Below, one piece after another: positions 42,976-64,000 of a stretch of 64,000 nt of DNA (positions are counted from its first letter, which is position 1; the number at the start of each line of letters is the position of its first letter). Location: positions 33,217 to 97,216 of the forward strand of contig NZ_QFRU01000015.1 in the NCBI RefSeq assembly GCF_003184905.1. Reading direction: 5' to 3'. Origin of the DNA: Bacillus sp. CGMCC 1.16541 (GTDB taxonomy: Bacteria > Bacillota > Bacilli > Bacillales > Bacillaceae_H). The notes beneath the pieces were generated by a model. It was not told where the DNA came from. It worked only from the letters and a program-made list of their open reading frames with translations, and ran no database searches. The position numbers and the translations under genes are program-made.

Positions 42976-43707
42976 CTACCCTCCTAGCGTATACTGAAGA
43001 GCTTCAGAAACCGTTGAAACTCCTACAACTTCAATTCCTTTTGGAACTGTCCATCCTCCCAAGTTTTTTTCTGGGATGATTGCTCGCTTAAATCCTAACT
43101 TTACCGCTTCTTGAACCCTTTGTTCAATTCGTGAAACCCTTCTTACTTCACCTGTTAATCCAACTTCTCCAACCACTACGTCCGTTGGATTAGACGGGAC
43201 ATCCCGAAAGCTTGATGCGATGCTAACCGCCACTGCTAAGTCAATTGCAGGTTCATCTAACTTCACACCACCCGCCACTTTTAGATAGGCGTCCTGATTT
43301 TGAAGCAACAAACCTACTCGCTTCTCTAAAACAGCCATAATAAGTGATACACGATTGTGATCAACACCTGTAGCCATCCGTCTTGGGTTCCCAAAACTAG
43401 TTGGGCTAATTAATGCTTGTAATTCTACTAAAACAGGTCTAGTTCCTTCCATTGATGCAACGACCACTGATCCTGCTGCACCTTGAGATCTTTCTTCTAG
43501 AAAGATCTCTGATGGATTTAATACTTCTTCTAGTCCACTTTCTTTCATTTCAAATATACCCATTTCATTTGTAGAACCAAAGCGATTTTTTACAGCTCGT
43601 AAAATACGATATGTATGATGTCTCTCACCTTCAAAGTATAACACTGTATCTACCATATGTTCTAACAATCGAGGGCCTGCAATTGCTCCTTCTTTCGTCA
43701 CATGGGC
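42976..43707 (-). pseudogene. radA: 3' half of host radA, cut by the element
   Basis: About 241 codons matching RadA from the GHVTKEG region to the end: [20 protein letters not shown], the RadA-specific KNRFG motif, and the Lon-like C-terminal domain ([19 protein letters not shown]). The zinc finger, Walker A and Walker B (about residues 1-215) are missing from this side and should lie beyond the right edge. In frame, a TAA lies at 43708-43710, just before GTA GCC CAT GTG; translation could begin at GTG 43701 but would give no ATPase. Confidence 0.92.
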
Positions 43708-43712
43708 TACTT
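43701..43712. other. attL: Left attachment junction in radA (approximate)
   Basis: Host radA coding sequence is recognisable up to the CAT GTG ACG codons and stops resembling RadA within about ten bases (43703-43712). The sequence beyond is AT-rich with stops in all frames. The exact crossover cannot be fixed without the other junction or an empty site. Confidence 0.65.
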
Positions 43713-43729
43713 ATATTTGTCTAAAAAAC

Positions 43730-43797
43730 TGATAAAACCTTTAAACCATTGATACGAAAGAGATTTACGGATGATAAAACCCAACTAATGATAAAAC
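43730..43797. repeat. Three TGATAAAAC repeats at the element's left end
   Basis: TGATAAAAC occurs at 43730-43738, 43772-43780 and 43789-43797, all in the same orientation, 42 and 17 bp apart. The last two are extended to ATGATAAAAC and the first is CTGATAAAAC. They start about 25 bp inside the junction, where recombinase arm sites would be expected. Confidence 0.7.
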
Positions 43798-43824
43798 TTT
43801 ATTTCCACTTTAAACTTAAATGCT

Positions 43825-44418
43825 TTAATCATCAAACAGGTCTTTAAAAGTAGTTTTTGTTTCGCTATAACTTTTTATGTCTATGATGTTATCTCTTAGT
43901 TTATTCTCATTACGTTCAACTATTGAGGTACTTTGAACTGCCATCTTTTTCATTTCTTCTTTGTAAAATTCTATATCCTCTTTTAATGAAGATATTTGAT
44001 TTTTTAATTGAACATTCTCTCGTTCCAACTCTTCTGCGTGAAGTGATTTCTCTAAGCTGAATTGATAAGCCTCTAATAAAGTATCAATTACCTCAACTAA
44101 CTTATTTTTATTCTTATAATTCTTGATGACTATATCCTCTGCGGAAGGAATATTCCACAATTCTTTGACATCCTTTATAGGAGCAATAGCGGTTATATCT
44201 TCTATTTTCTTGTTTAGTAGTTCAATCTCTTTTTTAATTTCCTCATTAAATCTCCATGCTTGAATTGGAATATCGGTATATTTGACCAAATCAGCAATTT
44301 TAACCTTATTAGGATTTTTATTTCTTACATATTTATAAAGTAAGTCTTTTAAATGCTCTGTGTCATACTTCTTCGGTCTACCACCCTTATTTTTTTGATT
44401 TTTATCTTCTACTGGCAT
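43825..44418 (-). CDS. HTH and coiled-coil protein, possible TnpC-like accessory
   Basis: 197 aa, function not recognised with certainty. The N-terminus is basic with GGRPKKYD, followed by a possible helix-turn-helix (KIADLVKYTDIPIQAWRFNE, about residues 39-58). A long coiled coil follows at about 115-165 (LHAEELERENVQLKNQISSL). This resembles the small DUF6262/TnpC accessory proteins of Tn554-type elements, which bind near the ends. It is the first gene inside the left end and lies 19 bases after the serine recombinase, so the two are one operon. AGGAGGTGAATTCTA precedes the ATG. Its tail continues into the repeat region. Confidence 0.55.
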   Translation of the reverse strand: MPVEDKNQKNKGGRPKKYDTEHLKDLLYKYVRNKNPNKVKIADLVKYTDIPIQAWRFNEEIKKEIELLNKKIEDITAIAPIKDVKELWNIPSAEDIVIKNYKNKNKLVEVIDTLLEAYQFSLEKSLHAEELERENVQLKNQISSLKEDIEFYKEEMKKMAVQSTSIVERNENKLRDNIIDIKSYSETKTTFKDLFDD

Positions 44419-44437
44419 TAGAATTCACCTTCTTTCT

Positions 44438-44986
44438 TCATTTATTTATATAACGATACAGAGTCGTTTTGCTAACACTTGTTGCATTAGTAATTTCTTT
44501 TATTGAATAGTCCTTACTATTATACATTTTTAATGCTAATTCTATATTATTATTCGACTTCGGAGGTCTTCCTCCCTTCCTTCCCCTCATTCTTGAATTC
44601 TCAAGTCCTTCTTTTGTTCTTTGTGAAATTAAGTCCCTCTCAAATTGAGAAATTCCTGCAAAAATGGTAAACATGAGTTTACCTTGGGGTGTTGTAGTAT
44701 CTAACCAGCTTTCTTTTAGAGACTTGATATGAGCACCTTTTTGCTCAATTGCCTCTACGACCTTAAACAAATCTTTCGTGCTTCTGCTCAGTCTTGTAAG
44801 TTCAGTTACAATAATTACATCATTTTCTCGCAATTGTTCCATAAGTTTTTCCAATTCTACTCTTTCCAACTTTGTTCCTGTTACCTTTTCTTTATAAATC
44901 TTCTCGCACCCAGCTCTCTTCAATTGGTCAACCTGATTATCAAAATTCTGTGATTTTGAACTTACTCTGGCGTATCCAAATATCAT
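44438..44986 (-). CDS. Serine recombinase, resolvase/invertase family
   Basis: 182 aa. The catalytic serine lies in GYARVSSKSQNFDNQ (S9/S10), with the conserved arginines in TRLSRSTKDLF and QRTKEGLENSRMRGRKGGRP. A C-terminal HTH (YSIKEITNATSVSKTTLYRY) ends the protein. It has the typical length of small resolvases or invertases, not of large serine integrases, so it more likely resolves cointegrates or dimers or inverts a segment than integrates the element. AAGGAGGGGAACAG precedes the ATG. Confidence 0.93.
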   Translation of the reverse strand: MIFGYARVSSKSQNFDNQVDQLKRAGCEKIYKEKVTGTKLERVELEKLMEQLRENDVIIVTELTRLSRSTKDLFKVVEAIEQKGAHIKSLKESWLDTTTPQGKLMFTIFAGISQFERDLISQRTKEGLENSRMRGRKGGRPPKSNNNIELALKMYNSKDYSIKEITNATSVSKTTLYRYINK

Positions 44987-45106
44987 CTGTTCCCCTCCTT
45001 AGATATACATTTACCTATCCCTAAAGTACCATAAACGTATAAATACATCAATTTTGGGAATTTGATTTTGGAACTGTTTTTGGTTCTGGAATTCAGCTTA
45101 ATTTCA

Positions 45107-45165
45107 ATAAAAAAATAACTGGTTTCAAAAGTGCCGATAACGACCGTTTTTGAAACCAGTTATTT
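45107..45165 (-). terminator. Strong terminator after the mini-gene operon
   Basis: Arms 45113-45130 and 45148-45165 pair perfectly over 18 bp (core AACTGGTTTC / GAAACCAGTT) with a 17-base loop, and the minus strand continues with UUUUUU. It ends the transcript of the transglutaminase-like gene and the two small ORFs. A recombinase site is a less likely alternative. Confidence 0.82.
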
Positions 45166-45224
45166 ATTTGGTGGGGGACATATTATATAAAACAATTTTA
45201 TTACTATTTCAGTTAAAAAGAGCA

Positions 45225-45377
45225 TTATCTTCTCCAAAAGAAAATCCTTTTCCTTTTTAACCCTTCTAAAAATTCAAGTAACTCTCTTGTATCCTTTTCT
45301 CGTCTTATGGTCATTGGAGAAAGGGTGGGAAGAGGACAATACACTCTTGATTTAACTATAAATCTCTTTTCTTCCAT
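45225..45377 (-). CDS. Small basic protein, 50 aa
   Basis: Not recognised. Begins MEEKRFIVKSRVYCPL and ends RKRIFFWRR; strongly basic with one cysteine and three prolines near the N-terminus. AAGGGG lies about ten bases before the ATG. It starts 3 bases after the preceding 44-aa ORF and ends shortly before the strong terminator, so it is the third gene of a small operon with the transglutaminase-like gene. Confidence 0.5.
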   Translation of the reverse strand: MEEKRFIVKSRVYCPLPTLSPMTIRREKDTRELLEFLEGLKRKRIFFWRR

Positions 45378-45380
45378 TAT

Positions 45381-45515
45381 CTAAATACCCCTTTTTGCAA
45401 GAATCCGTAGAGCCTTTTGATTCATTTTTCTTACTTTATCAGATAAAAACAATTCTTCTGGAACAATCATCGGTCTTTTGGTTGGATTAGTCGCTTTCTT
45501 ACATTTTAGTGTCAT
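45381..45515 (-). CDS. Small basic protein, 44 aa
   Basis: Not recognised. Begins MTLKCKKATNPTKRPMI and ends KALRILAKRGI; one cysteine near the N-terminus. Its ATG overlaps the stop of the transglutaminase-like gene as ATGA, the classical arrangement for coupled translation, which supports that it is expressed. Function unknown: it could be a partner, regulator or substrate of the upstream enzyme. Confidence 0.5.
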   Translation of the reverse strand: MTLKCKKATNPTKRPMIVPEELFLSDKVRKMNQKALRILAKRGI

Positions 45516-46159
45516 CACAAATCACCTTTGCTTTCTATGCCTTTCGTTTTTAATACTCTATAATGGGTATCGTATTTTTTGCGAAGCCTCGATAAATTGG
45601 TAAAACCCATGATGCCGATTCCTGCTTTTAAAATTTCATCCCATAAAAAATTCTTAGGATATCCGTAATCTTTAATCGCATCAAGATATGCAGTTACACT
45701 CTTATCTAACAGATGTTTAGCATCTCTATCCAGTGCATCTTTATCCTTGGATACACCATACTCCATAGTTAATGGTTCGAGTGTTAATTTTACCCCGTTA
45801 TAAACTGGTGGATGTACATTGCCATCCAAAGTGTGCATAATGGCTGGGTCAAAGATTTCTCCATCTATTTCAACCCAAGAATGACTAAATTGGGTATTGG
45901 CTTCATAGTCTTCTACTTCCCCTATCACGAGTTCATTTTCAATTCCCTGCTCCGTTAATAGAATATGTAACATTGCAGAAATCAGATGACATCCCCCCGA
46001 TGCTTCTTCTGTTTTCGCTAAATAATTTAAAGTGGATTCATATGCATTATGTATCTCTATTGCTTGTGGATGATTAAGTTCAATTTTTTTCATATTACGA
46101 ATACATTCAGTGGATAAGAATGTTAGAAATTCTAATTTGCTATTAAAATGTGGAATCAT
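45515..46159 (-). CDS. Transglutaminase-like (papain-fold) protein
   Basis: 214 aa. A Cys-His-Asp set typical of transglutaminase-like enzymes is visible in order: C in ASGGCHLISAMLHILLTEQG (about residue 58), H in QFSHSWVEIDG (about 88), D in EIFDPAIM (about 98). The spacing resembles the transglutaminase-like/lasso B2 protease fold. The ATG at 46159 follows GAGGAGAAAAAG; a 25-codon upstream extension has no ribosome binding site. Substrate unknown: protease, deamidase or cross-linking activity are all possible. It heads an operon with two mini-genes. Confidence 0.65.
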   Translation of the reverse strand: MIPHFNSKLEFLTFLSTECIRNMKKIELNHPQAIEIHNAYESTLNYLAKTEEASGGCHLISAMLHILLTEQGIENELVIGEVEDYEANTQFSHSWVEIDGEIFDPAIMHTLDGNVHPPVYNGVKLTLEPLTMEYGVSKDKDALDRDAKHLLDKSVTAYLDAIKDYGYPKNFLWDEILKAGIGIMGFTNLSRLRKKYDTHYRVLKTKGIESKGDL

Positions 46160-46471
46160 CTTTTTCTCCTCGTATTTGATATTTAATTCACGACTCTTGG
46201 ATAGTTCATACACCTTACTTAACTTGTATCCCAATTACATGAGTATAAAGATTGGGATTAAGAAAGGGAAAAACCACCCCAAAGCTCCGCAAAGGCAAAA
46301 AGGATGGTCTTTCTGGTCGTTCTCGTAAATAATCCAATTTTTCGATGAACCAAACCATTAAAGCTCGGTTATATGGACAACAATAAATGTCCAGTATCGT
46401 TGTCTCTTTAAGATTACAATAAAAAGAATTAGGTTTCCAGTATATTATCCATAATGTTCCTTTTTAAGGGA

Positions 46472-46831
46472 TTAATTACTTTTATTTTTTTCATTCTTTT
46501 TAAAGGATAGAGGCTTTTGTTTTTCACGCATTTGTTGTACATATTCTTGCACTTCATTTGGAAGACTCTTTTTGTATTGGATGTCATTTGCAATCTTATT
46601 CAAAAGTTTTGCTACATCCTCTACTTTTTCATTAGAAATGGTCAGCAATAAATAGGATACGGTTTGTTTAGCAACATCCTTATCTAAAAACTCTTTTACA
46701 CTATTGGTTTCAATTGCTGTGACCAATGCAAGAGAAGATGAAGATAATCTGTAACTTGCCCCACCATTCCTTTGATATTCGTATTCCTTCTTTAGTTCTT
46801 TAATAAAATCTTCAAACGAGGCCTCTTCCAT
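46472..46831 (-). CDS. Unknown protein, 119 aa
   Basis: Not recognised. Begins MEEASFEDFIKELKKEYEYQ, is mainly helical by composition and ends in a lysine-rich tail. GGAAG lies 6 bases before the ATG at 46831; the longer in-frame ORF reads into a hydrophobic stretch without support. It is divergent from the small gene at 46973, with a shared 140-base promoter region. Confidence 0.5.
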   Translation of the reverse strand: MEEASFEDFIKELKKEYEYQRNGGASYRLSSSSLALVTAIETNSVKEFLDKDVAKQTVSYLLLTISNEKVEDVAKLLNKIANDIQYKKSLPNEVQEYVQQMREKQKPLSFKKNEKNKSN

Positions 46832-46972
46832 ACATTTCTTCCTTTCTTTACAATCCATACCTACAATAAAAAGTATTCGGCAAGAAGGTAAACTCTCCTC
46901 TTTCAACCTAAACCTTTTCTGGTTAAAAATGTAATAATTTGGTGTTATTATATAAGAAAGGTGTGTGAGAAA

Positions 46973-47155
46973 ATGCTGAGTGAAAAAATGATTGAAGAAA
47001 TGAAACGGTTTGATGACGCTTTTCCAAATGGACTATTCTGCTACCCTAAGTCAGTAAGGGTAAAAGTTAGAGCACTGAATGAGTATTGCAAAGCAAGAAA
47101 CATTACTCCACAGGAATTAACAAAAGAAGAGATTAAGAGGTTTATTTCCAAATAA
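46973..47155 (+). CDS. Small unknown protein, 60 aa
   Basis: Not recognised. Begins MLSEKMIEEMKRFDDAFPNG and ends EEIKRFISK. AAGGTG lies ten bases before the ATG; an earlier GTG at 46961 overlaps it. Similar short proteins of this style occur in Bacillus islands. It is followed after 70 bases by the CPCC gene on the same strand. Confidence 0.5.
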   Translation: MLSEKMIEEMKRFDDAFPNGLFCYPKSVRVKVRALNEYCKARNITPQELTKEEIKRFISK

Positions 47156-47223
47156 GTACATAAAAAAACCGACCAACTTTTTTACCTTCATTTCCTACTT
47201 AGAAATCAATATGATGGTGTGTT

Positions 47224-47496
47224 ATGAAATATACTTGTCCTTGTTGCGGTTATATTTCCCTTGATAGTGAAATTCACGATATCTGCGATATCTGCAATTG
47301 GCAAGACGAGCCAGTATCCAGAACTGAACCTGACTTTGAAGGTGGGGTTAATGGTAATGTAACACTTCGCCAAGCCCAATCAAATTTTGCTGAATTCGGT
47401 GCATGTGAGAAAGCATTTTTAAAAGTTGTACGCAAACCAAATGAACAAGATAAAAGAGACCCAAAATGGAAACCATTAAAAAATAAAAAGGAGTAG
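47224..47496 (+). CDS. CPCC-family cysteine-rich protein
   Basis: 90 aa. The N-terminus KYTCPCCGYISLD and the CDICNWQDEP segment give four cysteines arranged as a zinc ribbon; the WQDEP and RQAQ.NF..FGACE parts match the bacterial CPCC domain family. The role is unknown, but it is often carried in islands. The ribosome binding site is weak. A terminator follows directly. Confidence 0.75.
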   Translation: MKYTCPCCGYISLDSEIHDICDICNWQDEPVSRTEPDFEGGVNGNVTLRQAQSNFAEFGACEKAFLKVVRKPNEQDKRDPKWKPLKNKKE

Positions 47497-47522
47497 GCTT
47501 TTAAGGCTACCTACTCTTTCAC
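47489..47522 (+). terminator. Terminator after the CPCC gene
   Basis: GAGTAGG and CCTACTC form a stem around an internal repeat, followed by a moderately U-rich tract on the plus strand. Confidence 0.55.
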
Positions 47523-47644
47523 ATTTTGTCCTAAGAGGACAAGAATAACTAATAACTGGTAATAAAGAAAGTTTTAAAGAAAAGAAAATCGTATTAAAGC
47601 TGTTAGATAATATGGATAAGAAACAAGCCTCCTATGAGACTTGT

Positions 47645-48586
47645 TTAGTTACGAGGACCAAAAAATCTATCTCCATTTAAGTGAATCATATGGTCTGGAT
47701 TATCAGCTACCCAAATTTCTGTCTCCCATGCAATTTGGTCAATGAACTTTTTGAATCCATTTTTTGCAGACATATCCAAGAATGTTGTAACATAAACAAT
47801 TCCACAATTACAATCTTCGAGCATAGCTTGGATTTCATTAATTCGTTTCATCGAAATTGGGCCTACAGAAGTGACCGCTTCTATAAAATAGAGCCAGTTC
47901 TTTTCTTTCACGTACAGAACCACATCAGGTAGTTTATCATGGTCAGTGATTACTACCCCCAATTCTTCCAACTTTTCTCTGTTCTTAATTAAATCTTTCT
48001 TTTTAGTATCTCCTACATAAAGGACTTCTGCACCAGGGGCAAACCTTGGAGCAAACTCTTCGATAATAGCCTTTTGAAGCTGATTATGTGCTCCAGGGCT
48101 GAAATGCAGTTTTTGTCCATTCGCAACAACTGGAATCATCGCCATTTCCCTAACTTGTGTATATTGTTCCACTAAGGTTTCATGGTTTTCTAACCATTCT
48201 CTCAACTTTTCTTCCCATTCAACCGTTCCATATGCTTGAATGACTTCCAAAGTTTCATCGGCTAAACGATAAGAATACTTCGGACTATTAGTAGCCCTTT
48301 CGTCATCGTCATCATTTGAAACTGCAATCGCACCGTCTACAAATTGATGGATGCTCTCTTTTCTAATCGTTTCTCGGCTATTCGGTTTGTATATTTTTCC
48401 GTAATGCTTTGCCATAAACTCCATCATATCTACAATCCGCAAGGAATTAATTGAGGCATTAGCCCAACTGTCCTCTTCTTTTACTCCAGCCAATGCCAAC
48501 AATACATATCCACTTCTATCGTTGTATTGTTTTGGTGGCATACCTAATTGTTTCAATATGTCTTTAGCTTCTTGTAGCTTACCCAT
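47645..48586 (-). CDS. BsuBI/PstI-type restriction endonuclease
   Basis: Type II restriction enzyme, 313 aa. The N-terminal half (about 1-140) is a helical DNA-binding region with MMEFMAKHYGKIYKPNSRET; the C-terminal half holds the PD-(D/E)XK-type core DKLPDVVLYVKEKNWLYFIEAVTSVGP. BsuBI and PstI cut CTGCAG, so this is the probable but untested site. It is 16 bases downstream of the methylase gene and co-transcribed with it. No controller gene lies alongside. Confidence 0.9.
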   Translation of the reverse strand: MGKLQEAKDILKQLGMPPKQYNDRSGYVLLALAGVKEEDSWANASINSLRIVDMMEFMAKHYGKIYKPNSRETIRKESIHQFVDGAIAVSNDDDDERATNSPKYSYRLADETLEVIQAYGTVEWEEKLREWLENHETLVEQYTQVREMAMIPVVANGQKLHFSPGAHNQLQKAIIEEFAPRFAPGAEVLYVGDTKKKDLIKNREKLEELGVVITDHDKLPDVVLYVKEKNWLYFIEAVTSVGPISMKRINEIQAMLEDCNCGIVYVTTFLDMSAKNGFKKFIDQIAWETEIWVADNPDHMIHLNGDRFFGPRN

Positions 48587-48602
48587 TGTAAAAACTCCCT
48601 TT

Positions 48603-50135
48603 TTATCCTGCGTTTGTTCCCTGTCTTGGGTTGACTAAAAACAATTCTTCTATAATCGTATCACAAGTTTCTGTTGTAATGGAGTTTGTTTCCAATATTC
48701 TTTTACCCATTCTTTTAATATCTTTTAAGGAAGGAAGTGGGATAGCATTTACTTCTGTAGCATTTACTTGGGTACTGCCATTTAATATTCGATAATACGT
48801 ATCAATATATGAACTATTAAAAAGAACAAATAATCCATACATTTCTTCTTTAGTCATTTCACCTTCTAATTTCGTAATATAGTTTAAATGGTTCTCAATT
48901 CCAACTTTTGCATATATAAAATCATCAGCAAAATAGAGGGAACACTGTACCCTTCTTCGTTCTTCTTTACTTGTAAATCGTTTAACCAATAAATAGTTTT
49001 TGCTATCCAATAATACGCTTTGACTTTCTTCTGTATCCACTATATATTGTGGATTCTTTGATACTGGAACAGGAAAAGAAATTCTATTATTAATAAAGTG
49101 ATTCGCCCATAAAAGGGGAACTGTATTTTCTCCTGGTACTTCTTTGATTAAATCTAATGCTCGAAAATCAACAACAGGTCCAGTCTTTAAACGAAAGCCT
49201 AATGATATCAAATTATATTCCCAAGAATTAACAATAGTTAGTAATTCAATCTCTTCTATAGTTGATGGAATAAGCATAAACAAGTTTTCCGAATCCATAT
49301 CAACGACAGTGCCATAAGGCACTTGTTGGATAAAACTTTCTCCCATAAACATATTTTCAGAGGCAGAAATAGTAATAGTATCAGTTATTTCTGTAGTTTT
49401 AATAGCTCTTAATACAATCGCTTCCTGAAGTACCTTATCTCCATCAAATACATCTAATCTGGAATGGAAAAGGTGAATATTGGTTATCCGAACGGTATTT
49501 AAGAAATACTCACGAAACTTCCGAAAATAAAGACCAGAGGTAAAACTACGTGGAGTAATAAAAATCATCTCTCCATTTGGTTTTAGTAATTTAGCGGCCA
49601 TTGCCATAAACAAGAAATATATGTTTGGTTGACCATGTACAACTGAACTCATAACAACAGATTCAGGTTCGGCTTTAGCAATCTTTTTATATGGAGGATT
49701 ACTGATTATGACATTGTATAATTCTTCTTCTGATTTCTCTTCTCGTCCATTCCAGAAGTCGTCATTACTCAAAATGAAATTCTGGTCAAAAATGGTATAA
49801 GTAATCGTCTTTCCATTCTGCTCTAAAACTGTGCGAATAAGTTCCATGTTCTCCCTTAGGAGAGGGAGAACATTTTCATCATTTTCGTATAAGTCAATGT
49901 GTATATGTGTAATAGTGTTATGCTCCAAAATTATTTGGCATAATCCACCAGCAAGTATTCCCGTTCCTGCTCCTGTATCTAAAATTCGGATACTTGATTG
50001 ATTGTATTCCATCAAACTTCCCATAAAGTTTGCAATGGAAGGTGGAGTGAAGAACTGTCCGATTTTCTTTCGGATATTCTTTCCTACTCTTTTTCCATAG
50101 TCGATGGTTTTATCATAAATTTGATTAACTAACAT
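48603..50135 (-). CDS. Type II adenine-N6 DNA methyltransferase
   Basis: Cognate methylase of the adjacent BsuBI/PstI-type nuclease, 510 aa. SAM motif I is LDTGAGTGILAGGLC (about residues 51-65), the catalytic motif IV is SNPPYKKI (about 149-156), and a target recognition domain fills the C-terminal half. KKIGQFFTPPSIANFMG at the start is the usual entry to this family. It is transcribed first, giving protection before cutting. Confidence 0.92.
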   Translation of the reverse strand: MLVNQIYDKTIDYGKRVGKNIRKKIGQFFTPPSIANFMGSLMEYNQSSIRILDTGAGTGILAGGLCQIILEHNTITHIHIDLYENDENVLPLLRENMELIRTVLEQNGKTITYTIFDQNFILSNDDFWNGREEKSEEELYNVIISNPPYKKIAKAEPESVVMSSVVHGQPNIYFLFMAMAAKLLKPNGEMIFITPRSFTSGLYFRKFREYFLNTVRITNIHLFHSRLDVFDGDKVLQEAIVLRAIKTTEITDTITISASENMFMGESFIQQVPYGTVVDMDSENLFMLIPSTIEEIELLTIVNSWEYNLISLGFRLKTGPVVDFRALDLIKEVPGENTVPLLWANHFINNRISFPVPVSKNPQYIVDTEESQSVLLDSKNYLLVKRFTSKEERRRVQCSLYFADDFIYAKVGIENHLNYITKLEGEMTKEEMYGLFVLFNSSYIDTYYRILNGSTQVNATEVNAIPLPSLKDIKRMGKRILETNSITTETCDTIIEELFLVNPRQGTNAG

Positions 50136-50305
50136 AACTGCACCTCAAAGTGATTCATAATCTAACATCTTATTTTAACATAGAAAAAACATGCAGTTAA
50201 AAGAACTTACGATTACCTTAAAATCCCAAAAGTAAATGAGACAATCTTCTGCTGATGGTCTGTAAATGGTAACTCCTAATAATTTATAAAATGAAATTTA
50301 ATAAT

Positions 50306-50336
50306 AGAAATGAGCTTGGAGGTCTCGTTTCTTTTT
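50306..50336 (+). terminator. Terminator-like hairpin upstream of the OLD gene
   Basis: AGAAATGAG and CTCGTTTCT (one G-U pair) with a nine-base loop, followed by UUUUU on the plus strand. No plus-strand gene lies upstream in the 290-base gap, so it may attenuate the OLD gene leader or end a short RNA. Confidence 0.5.
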
Positions 50337-50426
50337 ATGGTAATAAGGAGTTTGAGAGAAAAGTTGAACTAATAGGAAATATGTTACAATATTACTAAGA
50401 ATTTGAGTTTTGAAGGAGTGTTTTAA

Positions 50427-52715: not shown

Positions 52716-52739
52716 TTGAAAGAAAAGTAATCGAACTTC

Positions 52740-56295: not shown

Positions 56296-56334
56296 TAATT
56301 GTTGAGTAATACGAGAGAGAAGTCATAAAAAACT

Positions 56335-56367
56335 AAAGGTAGTAGATTAGTATCCACTACCTTTTTT
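56335..56367 (+). terminator. Terminator of the cad operon
   Basis: AAAGGTAGT and ACTACCTTT (9 bp) with a 12-base loop, followed by UUUU on the plus strand. Confidence 0.88.
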
Positions 56368-56441
56368 CGTGCCCATTTCGATATGATTTCGTAATCAATT
56401 AAACTGCTAAAACAGGTGTTTTATACCATGATTTGTTCTTT

Positions 56442-56918
56442 TTATTTTCTCTCTAATAATCTAAGTAAAGTATCCGCACATGCAAACGCCTGGAAACGCT
56501 GTTCTTCTATAAATTCATCTTTTTCTTTGTTAAAAGTGTATTTAATAGACCAAATGGAGTTAGTGTCGAACACACGAAAAAAGATATATAAAGTGTTATT
56601 TTGCTTATCAAATTTGTACTCATGGTCTGTTTTGATTTGACGACCAAATTTTAATACTTCTTGTTCAACCATTTCCACACATTTTCTTTCCATTTCTACC
56701 TCTTCCAAAATATCTATCAATTCCCTTTGGGTTTCCCTGGACAAGTTTTTAACCATTGTTTCCATTCCAACATTAGTCATAAGGAGATTAAGCATTTTTA
56801 TTCTTTCTGCTTCGTCAAAAAAGATATCGTTCTGGTACATTTCTGTTTTTTCTGGGGTATTTTCTTCGTATTGTTGATAAGTTATTTTTTGTGGTTCTCT
56901 GCGAGGAATAAGTTCCAT
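56442..56918 (-). CDS. Unknown protein, 158 aa
   Basis: Not recognised. Begins MELIPRREPQKITYQQYEEN; a helical middle (ETQRELIDILEEVEMERKCV) and a C-terminal half with beta-rich YKFDKQNNTLYIFFRVFD. AAGGAG lies 8 bases before the ATG at 56918. It is the last of three minus-strand genes of unknown function, 12 bases after the next. Confidence 0.55.
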   Translation of the reverse strand: MELIPRREPQKITYQQYEENTPEKTEMYQNDIFFDEAERIKMLNLLMTNVGMETMVKNLSRETQRELIDILEEVEMERKCVEMVEQEVLKFGRQIKTDHEYKFDKQNNTLYIFFRVFDTNSIWSIKYTFNKEKDEFIEEQRFQAFACADTLLRLLERK

Positions 56919-56930
56919 TTTCAACTCTCC

Positions 56931-57287
56931 TTAACCTTCATTCTTCTGTTTTTCTCTAATTTCTTTTAGTCCATTTATGAAATGTGCTTCATTTTCTTTT
57001 TCCAGGACTTTTAGTATTGTGTTATCGTCTAAATTTGTATGAACCGCCAATTTAACCATTAATTTAACCTTAGCATCTGTTTTACCACTAAAGTAGCCAT
57101 CTTCGTGCCCTGTCTCATAACCAGTAAAGAAAATATCTTTAAATTGATTCTCAATTGTTTCATATATGCTTTGGATAGAGTCACCTTTGTCTTCCCAAAA
57201 CTTATTGTAGGCACGATTTAATTGCCATGAATTAAGTAATTCATCCATCCTGTCCAAAAAGATTTCCCCCTCTTCTAATGACATCAT
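56931..57287 (-). CDS. Unknown protein, 118 aa
   Basis: Not recognised. The middle (YETGHEDGYFSGKTDAKVKL) and the C-terminal helix pair (LDDNTILKVLEKENEAHFIN) recall the tail of Rpn/PD-(D/E)XK transposase-like proteins, but no nuclease core is present. The ribosome binding site before ATG 57287 is weak; an ATG 13 codons in could be the real start. Confidence 0.5.
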   Translation of the reverse strand: MMSLEEGEIFLDRMDELLNSWQLNRAYNKFWEDKGDSIQSIYETIENQFKDIFFTGYETGHEDGYFSGKTDAKVKLMVKLAVHTNLDDNTILKVLEKENEAHFINGLKEIREKQKNEG

Positions 57288-57327
57288 CGTTCAAAATAAG
57301 AAATCCAGTCTCATATCCGTTACATAG

Positions 57328-57747
57328 TTATTTCCTTATGTCTTTAATGACGATAAAATTAAGTAGTTCTGAAGGTTTAACACACAACAAAGGACTTATT
57401 GCTTCAAAAGTAATTGCTATTGTTAATCTTGCAAATTCTTTAACCTTACTTTTAGCTTCAAAGCCATGAATACTTAAGGTAACTTCACCAATTACAATCT
57501 GCAAATTACCGTTCATCATAAAGATATTGATTTGATGTCTCCTATCAATATATACTCTGTTTCTGTGCCATTGTAACTTCCCATCATCAGAATAATAAGA
57601 ACAAAGTTCTCCTATTTTCCTCTGGATTTTCATTGCTTCAATACTTTTCATAAGTGAGTTGAAATTTCTTCCTTCTCCACTCATAGAAATACACAAATAT
57701 GCTGTGTTTTTATTTTCTTTTCCTATTGCCCATTTTTCTATTTTCAA
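57328..57747 (-). CDS. Unknown protein, 139 aa
   Basis: Not recognised. A mixed alpha/beta protein with HRNRVYIDRRHQINIFMMNG and a helical C-terminal part. The TTG at 57747 is 6 bases from AGGGTG, which overlaps the GTG at 57756. It is 40 bases upstream of the 118-aa gene and probably in one operon with it. Confidence 0.45.
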   Translation of the reverse strand: MKIEKWAIGKENKNTAYLCISMSGEGRNFNSLMKSIEAMKIQRKIGELCSYYSDDGKLQWHRNRVYIDRRHQINIFMMNGNLQIVIGEVTLSIHGFEAKSKVKEFARLTIAITFEAISPLLCVKPSELLNFIVIKDIRK

Positions 57748-57799
57748 ATTTATCACCCTGTAAAAAATAATTTACCTATTCCTTCAAGCAAGATAGGAT

Positions 57800-57845
57800 A
57801 ACAAAAAACACTTCACTCCCCAAAGGAAATAAAGTGTTTTTTGTT
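57800..57845. terminator. Bidirectional terminator
   Basis: Perfect 14-bp arms AACAAAAAACACTT and AAGTGTTTTTTGTT with an 18-base loop. It insulates the unknown gene set from the controller gene and its promoter. Confidence 0.75.
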
Positions 57846-57931
57846 AAAATATATATCATTTACAATAATCTGTATTAAGGTATTCATATTATCAACCTCT
57901 TACTTCAGGAAAAGATATTTTTATAATGCTT

Positions 57932-57987
57932 GTCTATTATAGTCAACTTTTTACAAAATGTCACTCATAGTCTGTAGATATATAGTC
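57932..57987 (+). promoter_or_regulatory. C-box operator of an R-M controller protein
   Basis: At 57962-57987 two half-sites CACT-CAT-AGTC and GATA-TAT-AGTC are joined by TGTA; the two AGTC are 15 bases apart. This is the spacing of the C-box (GACT-3-AGTC, 4 bases, GACT-3-AGTC) bound by restriction-modification controller proteins. A further TATAGTC lies at 57938-57944. It sits 23 bases before the C gene, as expected for autoregulation. Confidence 0.75.
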
Positions 57988-58009
57988 TACAATTTTTAAA
58001 AATGTATCT

Positions 58010-58240
58010 ATGGAAGATAAATATATCAAAATCAAATTTGGACTTGCTGTAAAAAAACAAAGACTTTTGAAAAACATTTCTCAGGAGAAATTTGCAGAAA
58101 TAGTAGGCCTTCATAGAACTTATATTAGTGAGGTGGAACGAGGTACAAGGAACGTCTCTTTAATAAATATAGTAAGAATAGCTGAAGGCTTAGAAATGAA
58201 GACCTCAGAACTTTTTCATAGAATGGAAAAAGAAATATAG
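58010..58240 (+). CDS. Restriction-modification type controller (C) protein
   Basis: 76-aa XRE-family HTH protein. SQEKFAEIVGLHRTYISEVERGTRNVSL is split as the typical HTH of C proteins (about residues 24-50, with LHRTYISEVERG) followed by INIVRIAEGLEMKTSELF, which is the C.AhdI/C.Esp1396I dimerisation part. Such proteins delay restriction enzyme synthesis. A C-box lies just upstream. The only restriction-modification pair in the window is 8 kb away and lacks a C-box, so this copy is an orphan or has lost its partner. No clear ribosome binding site, so it may be leaderless, as many C genes are. Confidence 0.82.
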   Translation: MEDKYIKIKFGLAVKKQRLLKNISQEKFAEIVGLHRTYISEVERGTRNVSLINIVRIAEGLEMKTSELFHRMEKEI

Positions 58241-58370
58241 GTTATTATGTCTTTGGAAAAGTGTTGTTGGGTTAAGTTTGAGATTTTACTTTATATAACC
58301 TGGGAGAAAAAGAAGATTCTATACAAAGACACAGCTTAGTTTATAAAAGTACAACATAATACCAAAGAAA

Positions 58371-58395
58371 CAAAGACCTTGTTACGAGGTCTTTG
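58371..58395. terminator. Terminator at the end of the 275-aa gene
   Basis: CAAAGACC and GGTCTTTG with a nine-base loop. The last codons and stop of the minus-strand gene lie within it. It is followed by U-rich sequence on both strands. Confidence 0.75.
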
Positions 58396-59209
58396 TTTTT
58401 ATGTATTCATCAAATCGCTTTAATATATTTGCTGTAACAATCAAAACCAAATGTAGTCTAAAGGTTGAATCATCAATATCTGATAGACCTGGATGGGACC
58501 CTTCGGGATGAAGTCTCTTCCAAAATCCATTAATAAATCCTGTGCTATTACCTGTATCCCATTCATTTAAAGATGTATCAAAAATTGGCGGATTGGTTTT
58601 TGATAATTCAGCTTTTTTTAAATGGTCACTTTTTATACTCTTTATATGTACTTCCCCATAAATACTCTCGGCCATTTCATGGAATAAACTCTCTACATAA
58701 GTTCGTAGCTGTGAATTAGCAGATGCCCATTTTCCATTTTCGTGATTACTCATAGCTTGTCGAAGGTGTCCTAAAGGTGTAGTAAATTTATATTTGTCCA
58801 ATAATACAAAAATTTCCTCTTTTGATAAAGGTATATTAACACTTTGAGGCACATGATATTTTAACTCATTATCAATAATCGCTAACCCATCTTGTTTCAA
58901 AAGTTTAAATATTAAAGGGTATGTATCTTCAAAACTTTTAATTTCTACCTCATACATTTGACTTTCTTTTAAGTAACAAACTTCTTTGTCTATTAATTCC
59001 TTTATTAGTTCAAATGATATATCTGAGATTTCTGGATTTTCCTTGTTTTTAAGAAAATAATAAACAATGTTATTAATTCTCTCTGATTTGCTATTTCCAA
59101 TAGCAATATCTTGTAAATTATATTTTAATGCGTATGTAGTAATTTTTGTGTTAGTTTTTGGTTCAAGAAAAGTGGTTAAAATTTCGGTAAGTAATCTACT
59201 TGAAAGCAT
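58382..59209 (-). CDS. Unknown protein, possible HEPN/Abi-like
   Basis: 275 aa. The N-terminal half is a helical domain. The C-terminal half (about 140-270) has AMSNHENGKWASANSQLRTY, LHPEGSHPGLSDIDD and RLHLVLIVTANILKRFDEY. Conserved polar residues with R and H in helical surroundings recall HEPN-type or Abi proteins of defence islands, but no firm motif was identified. GGAGGGGAACTT precedes the ATG. It is convergent with the controller gene and downstream of radA with a terminator between. Confidence 0.4.
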   Translation of the reverse strand: MLSSRLLTEILTTFLEPKTNTKITTYALKYNLQDIAIGNSKSERINNIVYYFLKNKENPEISDISFELIKELIDKEVCYLKESQMYEVEIKSFEDTYPLIFKLLKQDGLAIIDNELKYHVPQSVNIPLSKEEIFVLLDKYKFTTPLGHLRQAMSNHENGKWASANSQLRTYVESLFHEMAESIYGEVHIKSIKSDHLKKAELSKTNPPIFDTSLNEWDTGNSTGFINGFWKRLHPEGSHPGLSDIDDSTFRLHLVLIVTANILKRFDEYIKTKTS

Positions 59210-59332
59210 AAGTTCCCCTCCTTGGATATTTTTAGCATTTATACCTATTTTAATTTATGCTGTAAGTTAGAGCAATTTAAAATATGTTAGTTTGGAAAAT
59301 ATGGTACGAGGAACAGTTTTTCCAATTATTTC

Positions 59333-59368
59333 ACAAAAACCACCCCTTTTTTTAAAAATAGGGGTGGC
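59333..59368 (-). terminator. Terminator after the element radA
   Basis: CCACCCC and GGGGTGG arms (minus-strand order CCACCCC then GGGGTGG) with a 14-base A/U loop, followed by UUUUU. Confidence 0.8.
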
Positions 59369-59393
59369 TTCATCCTTTGATGTTACTGTGGTT

Positions 59394-60779
59394 TTATTTA
59401 TTAAAAACTGCATCTATAACTTCACTTAAAGTATTCATTTGAATAACCTTAAGACTTTCAAAATGAATTTGTTTTGGAATTGCTTTTTTGGGGACAAAAG
59501 CCCTCTTGAATCCCATTCTATCTGCCTCTTTTAATCTCGCTTCAAGAGAAGGTACTCTTTTCAACTCGCCTGTTAGCCCTATATCTGCAATAAACAGAGT
59601 ATCGTTAGGTATTCCTTTATCCTTAGCTGAAGATACAATACTCATGATTATTGCAAGATTTGCTGATTGTTCCCTTAATTTCAAACCACCTGTTGATTTT
59701 ACAACAACATTTTTATTGAAGAAGTCTATCCCACCACGCTGTTCCAGGATAGAAATTAAGGTACTTAATTGTTCTCTTTTTAAATTTTCACTTATTCTTG
59801 AAGGATATGGGGTAAAGGACACAGCTACTAAACTTTCGATTTCTACGATTATTGGTCTTGTCCCTTCTCGAACTACAGTCAGGGCACTGCCTGAAACCTC
59901 CATATTACCTTCTCTTTGCGTCATAAAGTATTCAGAAGGGTTTTCTATTGGTTTCATCCCATCCTCTGTCATAGAGAAAAATGAGGTCTCTCCTGTGCTT
60001 CCAAAACGATTCTTACTTGCTGTTATTCCCCTTAACTCTTCTCCATTTTCGCCATCAATGATTAAAACTGCATCAACAAGGTGCTCAAGTGCTCTAAGAC
60101 CAGCTATTTCTTCATTTTTATTCATTTGCCCGACTAATAGCACTGCCCTTGGTCTTACACTGTCTTTGGCAATTCTAAGAAGTTCATTAGCACATTCCAT
60201 TGTTTGAGTTGGAGAACCAGCTCTTGAAGGTAAATGTTCATCTAATGTGAACGTCTGGATACTGTCAACAATGATTAAATCCGCATCTACTTCCTTTATA
60301 GCAGTTAAGACATTATCCATACTTGTATCTGAAACTGCCCAAATATTAGAATTCAATTTCCCTAATATTCTATCTGCTCTATTTTTTATTTGGCTCTCAC
60401 TCTCTTCACCTGATGCATAAAGAACTTTAAGACCTTTTGAGGCTACGTTTTCAGCTACCTGAAGCAAAAGTGTTGATTTTCCTGCCCCTGGTTTAGCAGT
60501 AACTATTGTAATTGAGTCTCTTACAATTCCTCCACCCATTACTCTATTAAATTCACCAATATCAGTTACAATTCTATCGCTTTTACTCGACTGTACATCA
60601 ACTAATCTTTGCACTGGCTTTCTATTAATTTGTGAGCTTTTAACTGATAGAGAATTTTTTTTGGCTTCTACAATAGTCTCCTCAAGTGTATTCCATTTTT
60701 CACAGTTTGGACATTTACCAGCCCATTTTATAGTTTCAAATCCACAATTATTACACTTGTACGCAACTTTCTTCTTTAT
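59394..60779 (-). CDS. Element-encoded RadA homologue
   Basis: 461 codons, the full length of RadA. In order: N-terminal zinc finger CNNCG and CPNC (cysteines at about 9, 12, 23, 26), Walker A AKPGAGKST (96-103), Walker B DLIIVDSIQT (about 167-176), the RadA-specific KNRFG (256-260) and the Lon-like C-terminal domain (IADIGLTGELKRVPSLEARL). RadA is a ring helicase for branch migration in recombination and repair. It is clearly diverged from the host copy. There is no ATG, GTG or TTG before the zinc finger; an ATA lies 9 bases after AGGAGG, so ATA 60779 is proposed. The first normal start (GTG 60614) would remove the finger. It follows the recombinase genes by 13 bases. Confidence 0.85.
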   Translation of the reverse strand: MKKKVAYKCNNCGFETIKWAGKCPNCEKWNTLEETIVEAKKNSLSVKSSQINRKPVQRLVDVQSSKSDRIVTDIGEFNRVMGGGIVRDSITIVTAKPGAGKSTLLLQVAENVASKGLKVLYASGEESESQIKNRADRILGKLNSNIWAVSDTSMDNVLTAIKEVDADLIIVDSIQTFTLDEHLPSRAGSPTQTMECANELLRIAKDSVRPRAVLLVGQMNKNEEIAGLRALEHLVDAVLIIDGENGEELRGITASKNRFGSTGETSFFSMTEDGMKPIENPSEYFMTQREGNMEVSGSALTVVREGTRPIIVEIESLVAVSFTPYPSRISENLKREQLSTLISILEQRGGIDFFNKNVVVKSTGGLKLREQSANLAIIMSIVSSAKDKGIPNDTLFIADIGLTGELKRVPSLEARLKEADRMGFKRAFVPKKAIPKQIHFESLKVIQMNTLSEVIDAVFNK

Positions 60780-60792
60780 TGGAAAGCACCTC

Positions 60793-62547
60793 CTAATCTA
60801 TTTCGTTTAACTTTTCAATATGTGCTAACAATAGAGCTTCCCGATTTACAAGAATATTTAATGCTTTACTTTCTCTTTGTAGTTCCTTTTCATTCATATC
60901 ATTTATTTGCAGAGTGTCTAACTCATTTCTCCTTGTTTTTGTCATTTCTTCGTAATACCTTTTCAAAAACCCTACTTTTACCTTTATTTCATCTCTTACT
61001 ACCGAAAGACTATTATTCAATAGTTCAATATCGGAATAATTAGTCTCAGCAAAATTAAACTGAAAATGACTACAAAATAAGCAGTCTTTATCTACACAAT
61101 CTTTAGGAAAGTTTTGACTATAACATAAACCTCCATCAATTTTTCGGGGCTTTATATTTGTAAACCTTTTGAATGCTAATTGACGCTTATCAGCAGAAGT
61201 GAATAAATTATTCACTTCACTATTCTGGCTATTTATATTTTGTTTAATATATTTAGACAGCATAAGGGTATGAGCTTCAGTAAATTCAGCAAGATGACCT
61301 AAATAATGATTTTGGGAAAATAGTGTTTCATGGCCCCCAATTTGAGCAATAGTTAAAGGATTAAACCCTTGTAACATCATGGAACAAAAAGCCAAATGTC
61401 TTGTATCCCCTGGTCTTAGCTTAACTAAACCAAAATTAAAGTCTTGATTATTGAAATCACCATTATTATCAAATACCTCAAATTGATATTTTTCGCAAAT
61501 TATTTCTTTATAGAACTCTGCCAATAAATTATCAAAGTCCTTCTTAGTTACTCTTTCTTTAATGACTCTTACTTTAAAAAATTTGTTATTCAAATGGTCA
61601 AAACTCATTAAAGAAAAAAGATAATCACCTTCCTCTGTATCAGTAAAGTTAATATAGTCATGGATTAAGTTGTAGATATCTTTGTTGGTCTTTAATTCAT
61701 CTATAACTGGTATGACCCTTCTTTTAGATAATGGATTTGGCCTTTGCTTTGTCCTCGGAATTTTTATAAAGTATTCATTGTCTTTGGGACTATAATAACA
61801 ACAATCTTTTTTTAATTTTAGAAATTCGTTTGGTCTCATTGGAATAACAGTTGTGATTCTCCACCATAAATAAATAGGATAGTATTTCTTTTTCAAATTT
61901 TCATCTGCCGATGACATAAAATTATTTATCAAGTGGTCGAACCAAACAATGCTTTTATACGGAGGTAATTCTCTTACATTTTCCCCAATAACTTTTTTTC
62001 CAGGAATATAGGATAACTCTACTAAGTATTCCTCATAGTCATTTACTGGATAAAAATATAGAAACGAAGTATTTCCATATTTAAAGTCATTTAAGGACTT
62101 TTCAGGTCTACTCTCAATATATCGAACAAAATCATCCAGATAATCTTCATCATAAGATTTTGTCATTTTAATTGTTTTCTTAATTTCAGATAATCTTAAA
62201 CCTATAACTTGGAGTGATATTCTTCTATCATACAGCTCTGTAATAACATAACACTTTAGAGCATTATATAGCGTCTGATTGTATTCAAAGTCAGTAAAAT
62301 CTAAATGACTATTCCAATCTGTTGTTAAACCATGCCATTTATGATGGTCAAAATTGCAAGTTACATTTAAAATTTTTTCATACTTTAATTCTTCAAACTT
62401 CACTTTAAATTCATCTATATTTTCTTTATCAAATTGAATATACCTTTTTCTTGAAATAACTGAGGTATTATCTTGTTTAACAATTTCACGAACCATAATA
62501 CCTTCATCTTTTAAACCAATTCTTGCTGAATTTCTAAGTTGCCCCAC
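60793..62547 (-). CDS. Tn554-like tyrosine recombinase
   Basis: 584 aa. A long N-terminal region is followed by a catalytic domain with R in MRPNEFLKLK (about residue 240), R-H in GDTRHLAF (about 390), H in IGGHETLFSQNHYLGH and its Y, the usual R...HxxR...H...Y order. A cysteine cluster DCVDKDCLFC and a coiled coil lie near the C-terminus (about 490-580). The size and C-terminal cysteines fit the large recombinases of Tn554-type transposons. GTG 62547 lies 8 bases after GGAGG. Confidence 0.82.
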   Translation of the reverse strand: MGQLRNSARIGLKDEGIMVREIVKQDNTSVISRKRYIQFDKENIDEFKVKFEELKYEKILNVTCNFDHHKWHGLTTDWNSHLDFTDFEYNQTLYNALKCYVITELYDRRISLQVIGLRLSEIKKTIKMTKSYDEDYLDDFVRYIESRPEKSLNDFKYGNTSFLYFYPVNDYEEYLVELSYIPGKKVIGENVRELPPYKSIVWFDHLINNFMSSADENLKKKYYPIYLWWRITTVIPMRPNEFLKLKKDCCYYSPKDNEYFIKIPRTKQRPNPLSKRRVIPVIDELKTNKDIYNLIHDYINFTDTEEGDYLFSLMSFDHLNNKFFKVRVIKERVTKKDFDNLLAEFYKEIICEKYQFEVFDNNGDFNNQDFNFGLVKLRPGDTRHLAFCSMMLQGFNPLTIAQIGGHETLFSQNHYLGHLAEFTEAHTLMLSKYIKQNINSQNSEVNNLFTSADKRQLAFKRFTNIKPRKIDGGLCYSQNFPKDCVDKDCLFCSHFQFNFAETNYSDIELLNNSLSVVRDEIKVKVGFLKRYYEEMTKTRRNELDTLQINDMNEKELQRESKALNILVNREALLLAHIEKLNEID

Positions 62548-62559
62548 TAAATTCACCTC

Positions 62560-63723
62560 CTATGTTATCTGTAAAAATTTATCCATCTCCATTTTTTGGT
62601 ACTTCTCCTTCAACACCTTTAAATCTATAAAACTACTGATATAATTGTTATCAAAGTTTTTATATGCCCTTCTAAAATCCATTAAAATGAACATTAACTG
62701 ATTTATCATATGTGTATATTTTATCCTTTTATTCAAATTAGATATAGGAGTAGTGTCTAATCTTTCTAACAGGTCAAATAACTGAGTATTTACCACTTCT
62801 AATACATAATTTGTCGGAATTAAATACTTACATCCTAAACAAGCTGTTGACGTTGTATAAGAGCAATTTTTAACTCCCTTAATACATTGAGAGTAATCAA
62901 TTAATGCTGGGGACTGAAATTGAGCTATTTCCTCCAACTTTTCACGAATTTTATCCGATGGCATTGCCATAAGTTCTTTCATTAAAGTCTCCGCTTCTTC
63001 ATGTCGTGTGTTGACATACTCTGAGATAGATTCTACTGTCAATGGCGAAACTTGGTCACTTACTTGTTTAATTAAATTTGTTTTGTTTCCCAAACTGATT
63101 TTTTCTGTATCTGAAATGACACTCAATAACGTTCCTATTTGCCAACCAAAGAAACCTCTTTCAAATAGGTGAAAAGAGATATTGTCTGCACTTACATCTG
63201 TATTTGACGTAACTAAATAGACACTCGTAATATCATTTGGTTTATCCAAGTAATCCTTATGTGCTCTTGAATAAGAACTTAGTTGATAAGCAATATGTGC
63301 TTTTCCTTCTTGGTTCACCGCTGTTTCAAATTGATAGGTCATTAAAGTCCGATTACATTTCAAACTTGAAAAAGCTGGTAAATCTTCGCCCAATACTAAT
63401 TTATAATCGTGAGAACGCAATTTAGATGATAAGAGATGGTCACTATTCTCTTTTGAATTTCTTCTGTGGATTTCACAAACAACAAATGCAAGTGCTGTAG
63501 GAATAGTTAATCCAATTACGAACTTCGCTTTTGCTTTTGTCTTATCTGTTCTAATTTCTTTACTTTTAATCCTTACATCATTTATAACTTTTTGTGCTAA
63601 TTCCAGACTAAACTCATTAGTATTAAACCACTCAAATCCATAAATCTCGATTATTTCAAGAGAAGGCGAAGGTATTTTTTTATAATCAGATTTTCTCCAC
63701 GCTAAAGAAAGGTGTAACAGCAT
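62560..63723 (-). CDS. Second Tn554-like transposition protein (5' end uncertain)
   Basis: 387 codons from the first ATG. CNRTLMTYQFETAVNQEGKA, SVYLVTSNTDVSADNI and HLFERGFFGWQ are, as far as I recall, shared with a large protein of Tn554-like elements; a C-terminal cysteine cluster (CIKGVKNC, CLGCKY) mirrors that of the next gene. A complete tyrosine-recombinase catalytic set was not confirmed. The frame stays open upstream for 78 codons to a TGA at 63958-63960 without any usual start codon, so the N-terminus is either broken by a stop/frameshift or starts unconventionally. Confidence 0.65.
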   Translation of the reverse strand: MLLHLSLAWRKSDYKKIPSPSLEIIEIYGFEWFNTNEFSLELAQKVINDVRIKSKEIRTDKTKAKAKFVIGLTIPTALAFVVCEIHRRNSKENSDHLLSSKLRSHDYKLVLGEDLPAFSSLKCNRTLMTYQFETAVNQEGKAHIAYQLSSYSRAHKDYLDKPNDITSVYLVTSNTDVSADNISFHLFERGFFGWQIGTLLSVISDTEKISLGNKTNLIKQVSDQVSPLTVESISEYVNTRHEEAETLMKELMAMPSDKIREKLEEIAQFQSPALIDYSQCIKGVKNCSYTTSTACLGCKYLIPTNYVLEVVNTQLFDLLERLDTTPISNLNKRIKYTHMINQLMFILMDFRRAYKNFDNNYISSFIDLKVLKEKYQKMEMDKFLQIT

Positions 63724-63957
63724 TAACAGCCATGTTTCCGCATATCTTCTGCTTAATATTGCCTTTTCAAAATGAAAATCTATATCACATAACTGGGTAC
63801 AGATTGCTACCCATTCTTTTTTTGAATAAATTCTCTCTTCTTCTTTTTCTATTTGTCTTTTATCTACAACACTTGAAGAATAGTCGTCTGTATATGAACA
63901 TACCTTTAACTTTTTACAGTGTTTTAAAAAATTGAAGATTAGTTTGTCAACAACGAT
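63724..63957 (-). pseudogene. Upstream in-frame extension of the transposition gene
   Basis: 78 codons directly continuous with the gene at 62560-63723, with coding-like content (IYSKKEWVAICTQLCDIDF and RRYAETWLL) but no ATG, GTG or TTG and a TGA at 63958-63960. The frame is open again upstream (EFHFVEIGEI) to the window edge. Most simply the gene is longer and carries a nonsense codon or frameshift. Confidence 0.45.
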
Positions 63958-64000
63958 TCAAATTTCCCCAATTTCAACGAAATGAAATTCCCCATTATGA

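Follow-up and report, generated by a model that had tools for sequence, protein, structure and literature searches.

The window analysed here, a 64,000-nucleotide stretch of Bacillus sp. CGMCC 1.16541 (contig NZ_QFRU01000015.1), ends in an integrative island that interrupts the host radA gene and carries a full-length, divergent radA of its own. The host gene is split at the codons for GHVTKEG. Its 3′ half starts with VTKEG, retains the KNRFG motif and the Lon-like domain (domain matches PF13541 and PF05362), is separated from the ATPase half and adjoins disA (41896-42972, minus strand). The 5′ half was located outside the window, beside clpC on contig C40 (L006:2676-3314, minus strand). The end of the window is the end of contig C13, and the island is seen in two parts, on C13 and C40, which we infer to be joined as one radA island. 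In all 15 other genomes of the GTDB family that were examined, the codons are joined as FIVGHVTKEG in one intact host-type radA; none of these 15 genomes contained an element-type RadA. Both located halves and the intact relatives bear out the original prediction for this DNA, in which radA was cut at GHVTKEG and left an ATPase-less 3′ half next to disA.

Comparison with the 15 intact sites places the left junction between ATTGTCGGT and TTAAAT and the right junction between AAGTAGCC and CATGTGACG. These junctions fit a 6-nt core with unlike sequences at left (GTCGGT) and right (GTAGCC); such a differing core is probably the expected trace of tyrosine recombinases. The element itself, with three genes of the tyrosine-recombinase type (in the ginA, ginB and ginC positions) and a small GinD-like gene, is best explained as an integrative island resembling GInt elements and the strand-biased circularizing integrative elements (SEs). 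The coordinates of its features are collected in Table 1.

The element RadA and a second radA island

Directly behind the third recombinase gene (60793-62556) lies the element radA, a frame of 460 codons free of stops at 59397-60776 on the minus strand. Its product matches TIGR00416 ('sms') over the whole length (E 7.9e-131; 436.9 bits, cut-off 403.05) as well as the RadA structure 5lkm in the PDB (E 2.9e-96), and it contains a C4 zinc motif, a Walker A motif (AKPGAGKST) and KNRFG. Identity to the host halves is 37% for the 3′ part and 42% for the 5′ part. In a tree of 31 RadA rows, which carries a long-branch warning, the element RadA and the island copy of Fredinandcohnia described below form one clade apart from the host RadAs, and this clade groups with two RadAs of large Paenibacillaceae plasmids. 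The position behind the recombinase genes, the motifs and the divergence from the host gene are all as originally predicted. The prediction of a full-length homologue also held, but its length of 461 codons requires a non-standard start. When the whole genome was searched with the element RadA, four matches were returned: the element RadA itself, the host 3′ half, the host 5′ half and a weak match on contig C2 (21% identity, C-terminal domain only). Thus no full-length RadA other than the element copy was found genome-wide.

The two plasmid RadAs (Aneurinibacillus, L039:19995-21413; Brevibacillus, L040:19995-21404) are 51-52% identical to the element RadA, and no recombinases are annotated within 20 kb of them.

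A scan for two short GinA patterns across 84,980 species genomes yielded 108 stretches, 23 of which were confirmed. In Fredinandcohnia quinoae, radA is cut at the same codon. The gene order ginABC-radA is common to both radA islands, with the ginD-like gene at the far right end of each, and the identities are 86% for ginA, 75% for ginC and 92% for radA; the middle recombinase gene is intact in Fredinandcohnia. Restriction and metal cargo differs between the two, and an HsdR-like open reading frame (ORF), read from the letters, stands behind the Fredinandcohnia radA, in a place taken by other genes in the window. Among the window-island ORFs of at least 100 amino acids (aa), 14 of 23 match the Fredinandcohnia island. 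Nine of these comprise the recombinase genes and radA together with the three-gene block at the right end and three small ORFs, and the remaining five are antisense to such genes. The Fredinandcohnia junctions fit 6-nt cores of GTCGGC and GTGGGG, and a clear 10-nt repeat was seen at neither radA island. None of the four RadA matches in the Fredinandcohnia genome is another full-length RadA. The prediction that each radA interrupted at this codon would be accompanied by a RadA of the same clade agrees with two of two islands, a small number; both radA islands found carry RadA, and no island at this site lacking it was encountered.

The hosts of the two radA islands belong to different GTDB families (G000, f1; G528, identical to G413 by contig and coordinates, f15). 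Synonymous divergence (dS) between the islands is 0.67 for ginD, 0.93 for radA, 1.0 for ginA, 1.49 for ginC and 1.62 for the middle gene. All host values are higher, with 1.83 for mcsB, 2.6 for clpC and saturation for the radA halves. The lower dS of the island genes is in line with horizontal transfer between families. The ratio of non-synonymous to synonymous divergence (dN/dS) is lowest for the element radA (0.040), followed by ginD (0.074), ginA (0.078), the middle gene (0.083) and ginC (0.095); the element radA is under purifying selection.

Split genes and spares in related islands

In total, 48 islands were examined (33, a further 14 new ones and that of the window), and both halves of the split gene were located for 17. 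A complete spare of the cut gene is present in 11 of these 17, a count that favours spares because in several islands the spare itself served for locating the halves. The spared targets are radA, topB, a 5′-3′ exonuclease gene, an mrfA-like helicase gene, yhaM and a nuclease gene. Another 11 loci (L043, L044, L059, L123-L130) passed through the split-plus-spare screen only, and none was flagged. With a reference taken from outside the island, spares were found in two of two radA islands, four of five topB islands (leaving out G422, the source of the TopB reference) and none of five islands in a DUF72 gene. In a 397-genome sample of the order, with islands matched to the earlier ones through contig and coordinates, both halves were located for nine of 26 places and a spare was present in five. 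A repair gene as both target and cargo, originally called an unusual strategy, thus recurs in this island family, although it is not universal in it.

Several cases can be described individually. The spare is 87/83% identical to the halves of topB in Lysinibacillus alkalisoli, 80/66% to those of the exonuclease gene in G192 and 79/85% to those of the mrfA-like gene in G362. Restoration of a gene end was considered for G192 and G362 and dropped, both host halves lying outside the island and the inner copy being complete. At G360a the spare of a split nuclease gene lies beside the left half, an arrangement that a tandem duplication could also explain; the twin, G360b, did not come up in the split-plus-spare screen. 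The yhaM case of B. kwashiorkori is weak: the spare is 25% identical, the right half comprises only 34 aa (E 0.002), and the match of the spare to the YhaM model (1.4e-26) falls far short of the model cut-off. Two loci flagged as split plus spare, G423b and G416b, were not counted since ginA is absent between the matched pieces. Neither was G424a, where a YfbR-like gene in the island matches a left-flank fragment 0.9 kb from ginA and the right half was not found.

One island occurs twice in the G360 genome, on contigs C1 and C2 (L016 and L017), with matches that score equally.

The topB islands allow the spare to be compared with the recombinases. In Bacillus massiliglaciei (G418:C16:334000-433999; L161, L106, L087, L088, L107), one topB is cut in two places by two islands that face opposite ways, each with its own TopB spare (77% identical to each other). 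A TopB search brought in a further two topB islands that have spares, G415 and G477, and both were verified. Four TopB spares are 75-84% alike and about 30% identical to those of the hosts, yet they reside in islands whose GinA proteins are only 28-41% alike and which cut topB at four different places. For TopB, this comparison indicates that the spare goes with the target and not with the recombinase lineage.

As a control, a matrix was made of 15 islands with known bounds and seven target families. The family of the island's own target was present in nine of the 15, whereas none of the 90 off-target cells was filled; of 221 neighbouring host ORFs, taken beyond the islands and at a distance from the island ends, 1 had a homologue inside the island. 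For four families (topB, exonuclease, mrfA and nuclease) one of the islands supplied its own spare as the query, which filled its cell by construction; the evidence there is the homology of the spare to both host halves outside. The empty off-target cells and the result for the neighbouring ORFs are informative as well. The islands of the matrix are not all independent, the two radA islands being kin. RadA was found in none of 13 islands with other targets. Seven of these 13 hold a TopB, exonuclease, MrfA-like, YhaM-like or nuclease gene, each matching the gene that is cut. Fisher values for the match of target and spare (1.7e-9 and 9e-12) are descriptive only, given that the ascertainment favours spares. 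In these family matches, the spare's family tracks the split gene.

Proposed compensation and its alternatives

We consider it quite probable that the spare compensates for the split gene, which would make the insertion tolerable and tie the host to the island. The recombinases would insert the island site-specifically at a conserved stretch of codons, in radA those for GHVTKEG. Insertion would cost the host its gene, and the spare on the island would take over the function. The radA spare is co-oriented with the host clpC-radA operon and stands behind ginABC, so that its predicted expression could come from read-through or a gin promoter, and functional replacement of the host gene is likewise a prediction from sequence. 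Two roles had been proposed originally, compensation for the lost gene and service in the element's own transfer. Compensation is clearly favoured: which family the spare belongs to depends on the split gene and, in the topB islands, not on the lineage of the recombinase. Moreover, purifying selection acts on the element radA, whose product is the sole full-length RadA found in both genomes.

RadA, a DnaB-like helicase, functions in recombination, and radA stands in line with ginABC and is conserved between both radA islands. It could thus serve the recombination or transfer of the island, for instance by branch migration in integration, excision or transformation uptake, its match to the target being incidental. 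This we regard as very unlikely, since RadA is absent from all 13 islands with other targets, seven of which hold enzymes matching their own targets instead, and since the radA frame of the window is open even though the middle recombinase gene is interrupted. The order of events could also have been reversed, a foreign RadA arriving first on a mobile element and making the host radA redundant before the insertion struck it. The related RadAs on the Aneurinibacillus and Brevibacillus plasmids would fit such a sequence, as would the topB cut twice in G418, as if it had been relaxed following the first cut. However, RadA and ginABC occur together in two families, both G418 islands carry a spare of their own, and a reversed order accounts for the gain of the spare while still requiring functional replacement; we hold it to be unlikely. 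Mere coincidence, in which repair and nucleic-acid enzymes are simply common island cargo, draws on the fact that the spares are DNA or RNA enzymes by family match and that six islands have no spare. It is already contradicted by the empty off-target cells and the single match among neighbouring ORFs, and we give it almost no credence.

A number of observations weigh against compensation. A spare is lacking in six of the 17 islands for which both halves were located. Of these six, five split the DUF72 gene (G426, G430, G428b, G429 and G639; in G639 the two DUF72 matches overlap by 46 residues, and the cut is less clear), and the sixth, G462, splits topB in a genome with a second TopB elsewhere. 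Among islands whose right ends were not located, the visible part contains no spare at G419 (catalase-like), G417 (UvrD-like), G564 (flotillin) and G715 (PepF), the last two names being read from ORF letters, nor at the topB islands G653 and G433. The halves of the host radA lie on two contigs, as do those of topB in G415, and in both cases the link between the halves is presumed. The start of the element radA in the window is non-standard: the first ATG, GTG or TTG of the frame is at 60614, behind the zinc finger, and nearer the recombinase gene there is an ATA 9 nt behind AGGAGG (60776-60795). Fredinandcohnia has ATC at the matching place (L042:13205-13225) and a GTG overlapping the ribosome site, and that GTG is out of frame in the window. 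Finally, among 89 columns without variation in 27 other RadAs, the element RadA differs at 9, and two of the changes (H to Q and E to N) fall within the GHVTKEG motif, so that its activity may not equal that of the host RadA.

Self-immunity of the spare through loss of its insertion site was tested separately and gained no significant support for RadA: changes affect two of the five invariant columns at the site, compared with 9 of the full 89 (hypergeometric P 0.078). The TopB spare in G422 retains the DAGREGEL residues at its insertion site.

Four of the DUF72 islands (L058, L061, L062 and L063), each from a different genus, have their cut near residue 171 of the same gene. They are probably kin, given the common cut site and a GinA identity of 70% in the one pair compared (G426 and G428b). 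Brevibacillus centrosporus (L176; G433:C3) has two separate TopB N-terminal pieces of 107 residues, 7 kb apart.

Mobile islands are usually thought to be harmless through their choice of site or by mending the end of the target gene. Here, house-keeping repair genes are cut in the middle and a complete, often distant replacement is brought along. If the spares compensate, this would explain why the insertions persist, how core repair proteins are swapped for distant versions and why the islands are retained, since deletion of the island would lose the gene. Looking for a spare of the cut gene would be a simple means of mapping island targets, and the spares would form a natural candidate set of functional replacements for RadA, TopB and others. 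More tentatively, and with more doubt than confidence, we suggest a lifestyle general to a class of islands, which would cut the gene of a conserved nucleic-acid enzyme, substitute their own version and make the cell dependent on them. The target would determine the spare, which would move among islands whose recombinases are unrelated. As for the replaced enzymes (RadA, TopB, MrfA-like helicase, exonuclease and YhaM-like), they may be versions that are favourable to mobile DNA or have lost the insertion site.

Likeness to known systems and other features of the island

The likeness to GInt was judged by fold, gene order and literature. According to the accessible parts of Bardaji et al. 2017 (PMC5385486), GInt elements have an operon of three integrase-type genes at one end, an arrangement also present in the window island, a small GinD related to TnpC, variable cargo that includes restriction systems, and site-specific insertion with a 6-nt overlap within flanking imperfect direct repeats of 10-11 nt. 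They excise as circles, for which all four genes are required. In GInt, ginD is fourth in the operon and precedes the cargo, whereas both radA islands have ginD at the far end and radA behind ginC; in the relatives L016 (G360), L043, L048 and L052 a ginD-like homologue lies directly behind ginC. A further difference is that the target gene of the window island is cut in the middle; the authors suppose that the target of a GInt is probably not inactivated completely. They also report that GInt operons are transcribed from outside as well, and the accessible parts mention neither a spare of the cut gene nor radA.

SEs, as far as PMC10214605 is accessible, resemble the island in having an ordinary recombinase, a second protein of XerH fold (5JJV), a large recombinase, a small fourth protein and a 6-bp footprint. 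They are reported mainly from a subset of Gammaproteobacteria, their second protein lacks catalytic residues, and no spare of the target is mentioned in those parts. Apparently unlike it, the middle protein here retains R209, K260, H354 and Y368, invariant in 17 rows and presumably catalytic; a XerH-like fold is supported for it, although Foldseek alone gave no match under E 0.001. The ginC-position protein matches PF00589 at E 0.0018 (below the Pfam cut-off) and the phrog_1 integrase at E 6.9e-7. Tn554-type elements, of which Tn6188 (5117 bp) is described in the available text of PMC3788773, share tnpABC, 6-bp junction sequences and a strong preference for one conserved site in a Firmicute gene. 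That target is radC, not radA, and kinship with Tn554 through a shared target was rejected; carriers of Tn6188 are termed radC insertion mutants, with no mention of a spare radC in that text. Islander islands (PMC4383910, seen in part) mend the damage to their target, a split tRNA or tmRNA gene; in contrast, a separate, complete and often distant homologue is carried here. In the open literature searched, including the accessible parts of PMC5385486, PMC10214605, PMC10121019 and PMC3788773 and with subscription papers mostly outside the search, no island carrying a spare of the gene it splits was reported.

Two scans of viral contigs revealed no relative. GinA had no match in a phage collection and four matching records in a plasmid collection. 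A GinA model found only 2 of 343 genomes in a sample of the phylum, one being Bacillus sp. CGMCC 1.16541 itself (G000), and therefore no replication outside the order was possible.

Table 1. Features of the window in and next to the radA island
Feature	Position	Strand	Basis or remark
3′ half of host radA	42976..43701	-	Genome search; PF13541, PF05362
Right attachment site: presumed 6-nt core GTAGCC (43705-43710), then host CATGTGACG	43702..43710	-	Compared with 15 intact sites
Island, visible part (20.3 kb)	43711..64000	.	Continues at L006:1-2675 (contig C40) to the radA 5′ half
GTTTTATC/GATAAAAC repeats near right end	43730..43797	.
ginD-like gene, 197 aa	43828..44418	-	39.8% to L016 ORF; conserved in Fredinandcohnia
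Serine resolvase	44438..44986	-	PF00239; 92% to Fredinandcohnia island
Transglutaminase-like ORF, weak match	45515..46234	-	87% to Fredinandcohnia island
Variable cargo: BsuBI/PstI-type restriction endonuclease and methyltransferase	47645..50135	-	No match in Fredinandcohnia island
Variable cargo: OLD-family ATPase/TOPRIM nuclease	50427..52361	+
Variable cargo: ArsR-family regulator and P-type metal ATPase	53501..56045	+
Three ORFs with no assigned function	56442..57756	-	Common to Fredinandcohnia island (51-73%)
Spare RadA, full-length, divergent, behind ginC	59397..60779	-	Apparent non-AUG start 60777-60779
Third recombinase gene (ginC position), 587 aa, tyrosine recombinase	60793..62556	-	PF00589, phrog_1
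Middle recombinase-like gene (ginB position), 3′ part, open to 63957	62560..63957	-	5′ part at L006:38-1186
End of insertion interrupting the middle recombinase gene at contig break	63950..64000	.	Contig ends

The middle recombinase gene is one uninterrupted ORF in L016 and L042. In the window it is seemingly interrupted, and this copy of the island may therefore be immobile. The contig ends at the break (63950-64000 and L006:1-60) hold imperfect inverted repeats, and the insertion, with a presumed exact edge, is probably an insertion sequence. Besides those at the right end, three GTTTTATC/GATAAAAC repeats are located no more than about 130 bp from the left end, at positions that match in both radA islands; these repeats are putative binding sites. 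The pair of ArsR-family regulator and P-type metal ATPase we take, by name, to be CadC/CadA-like.

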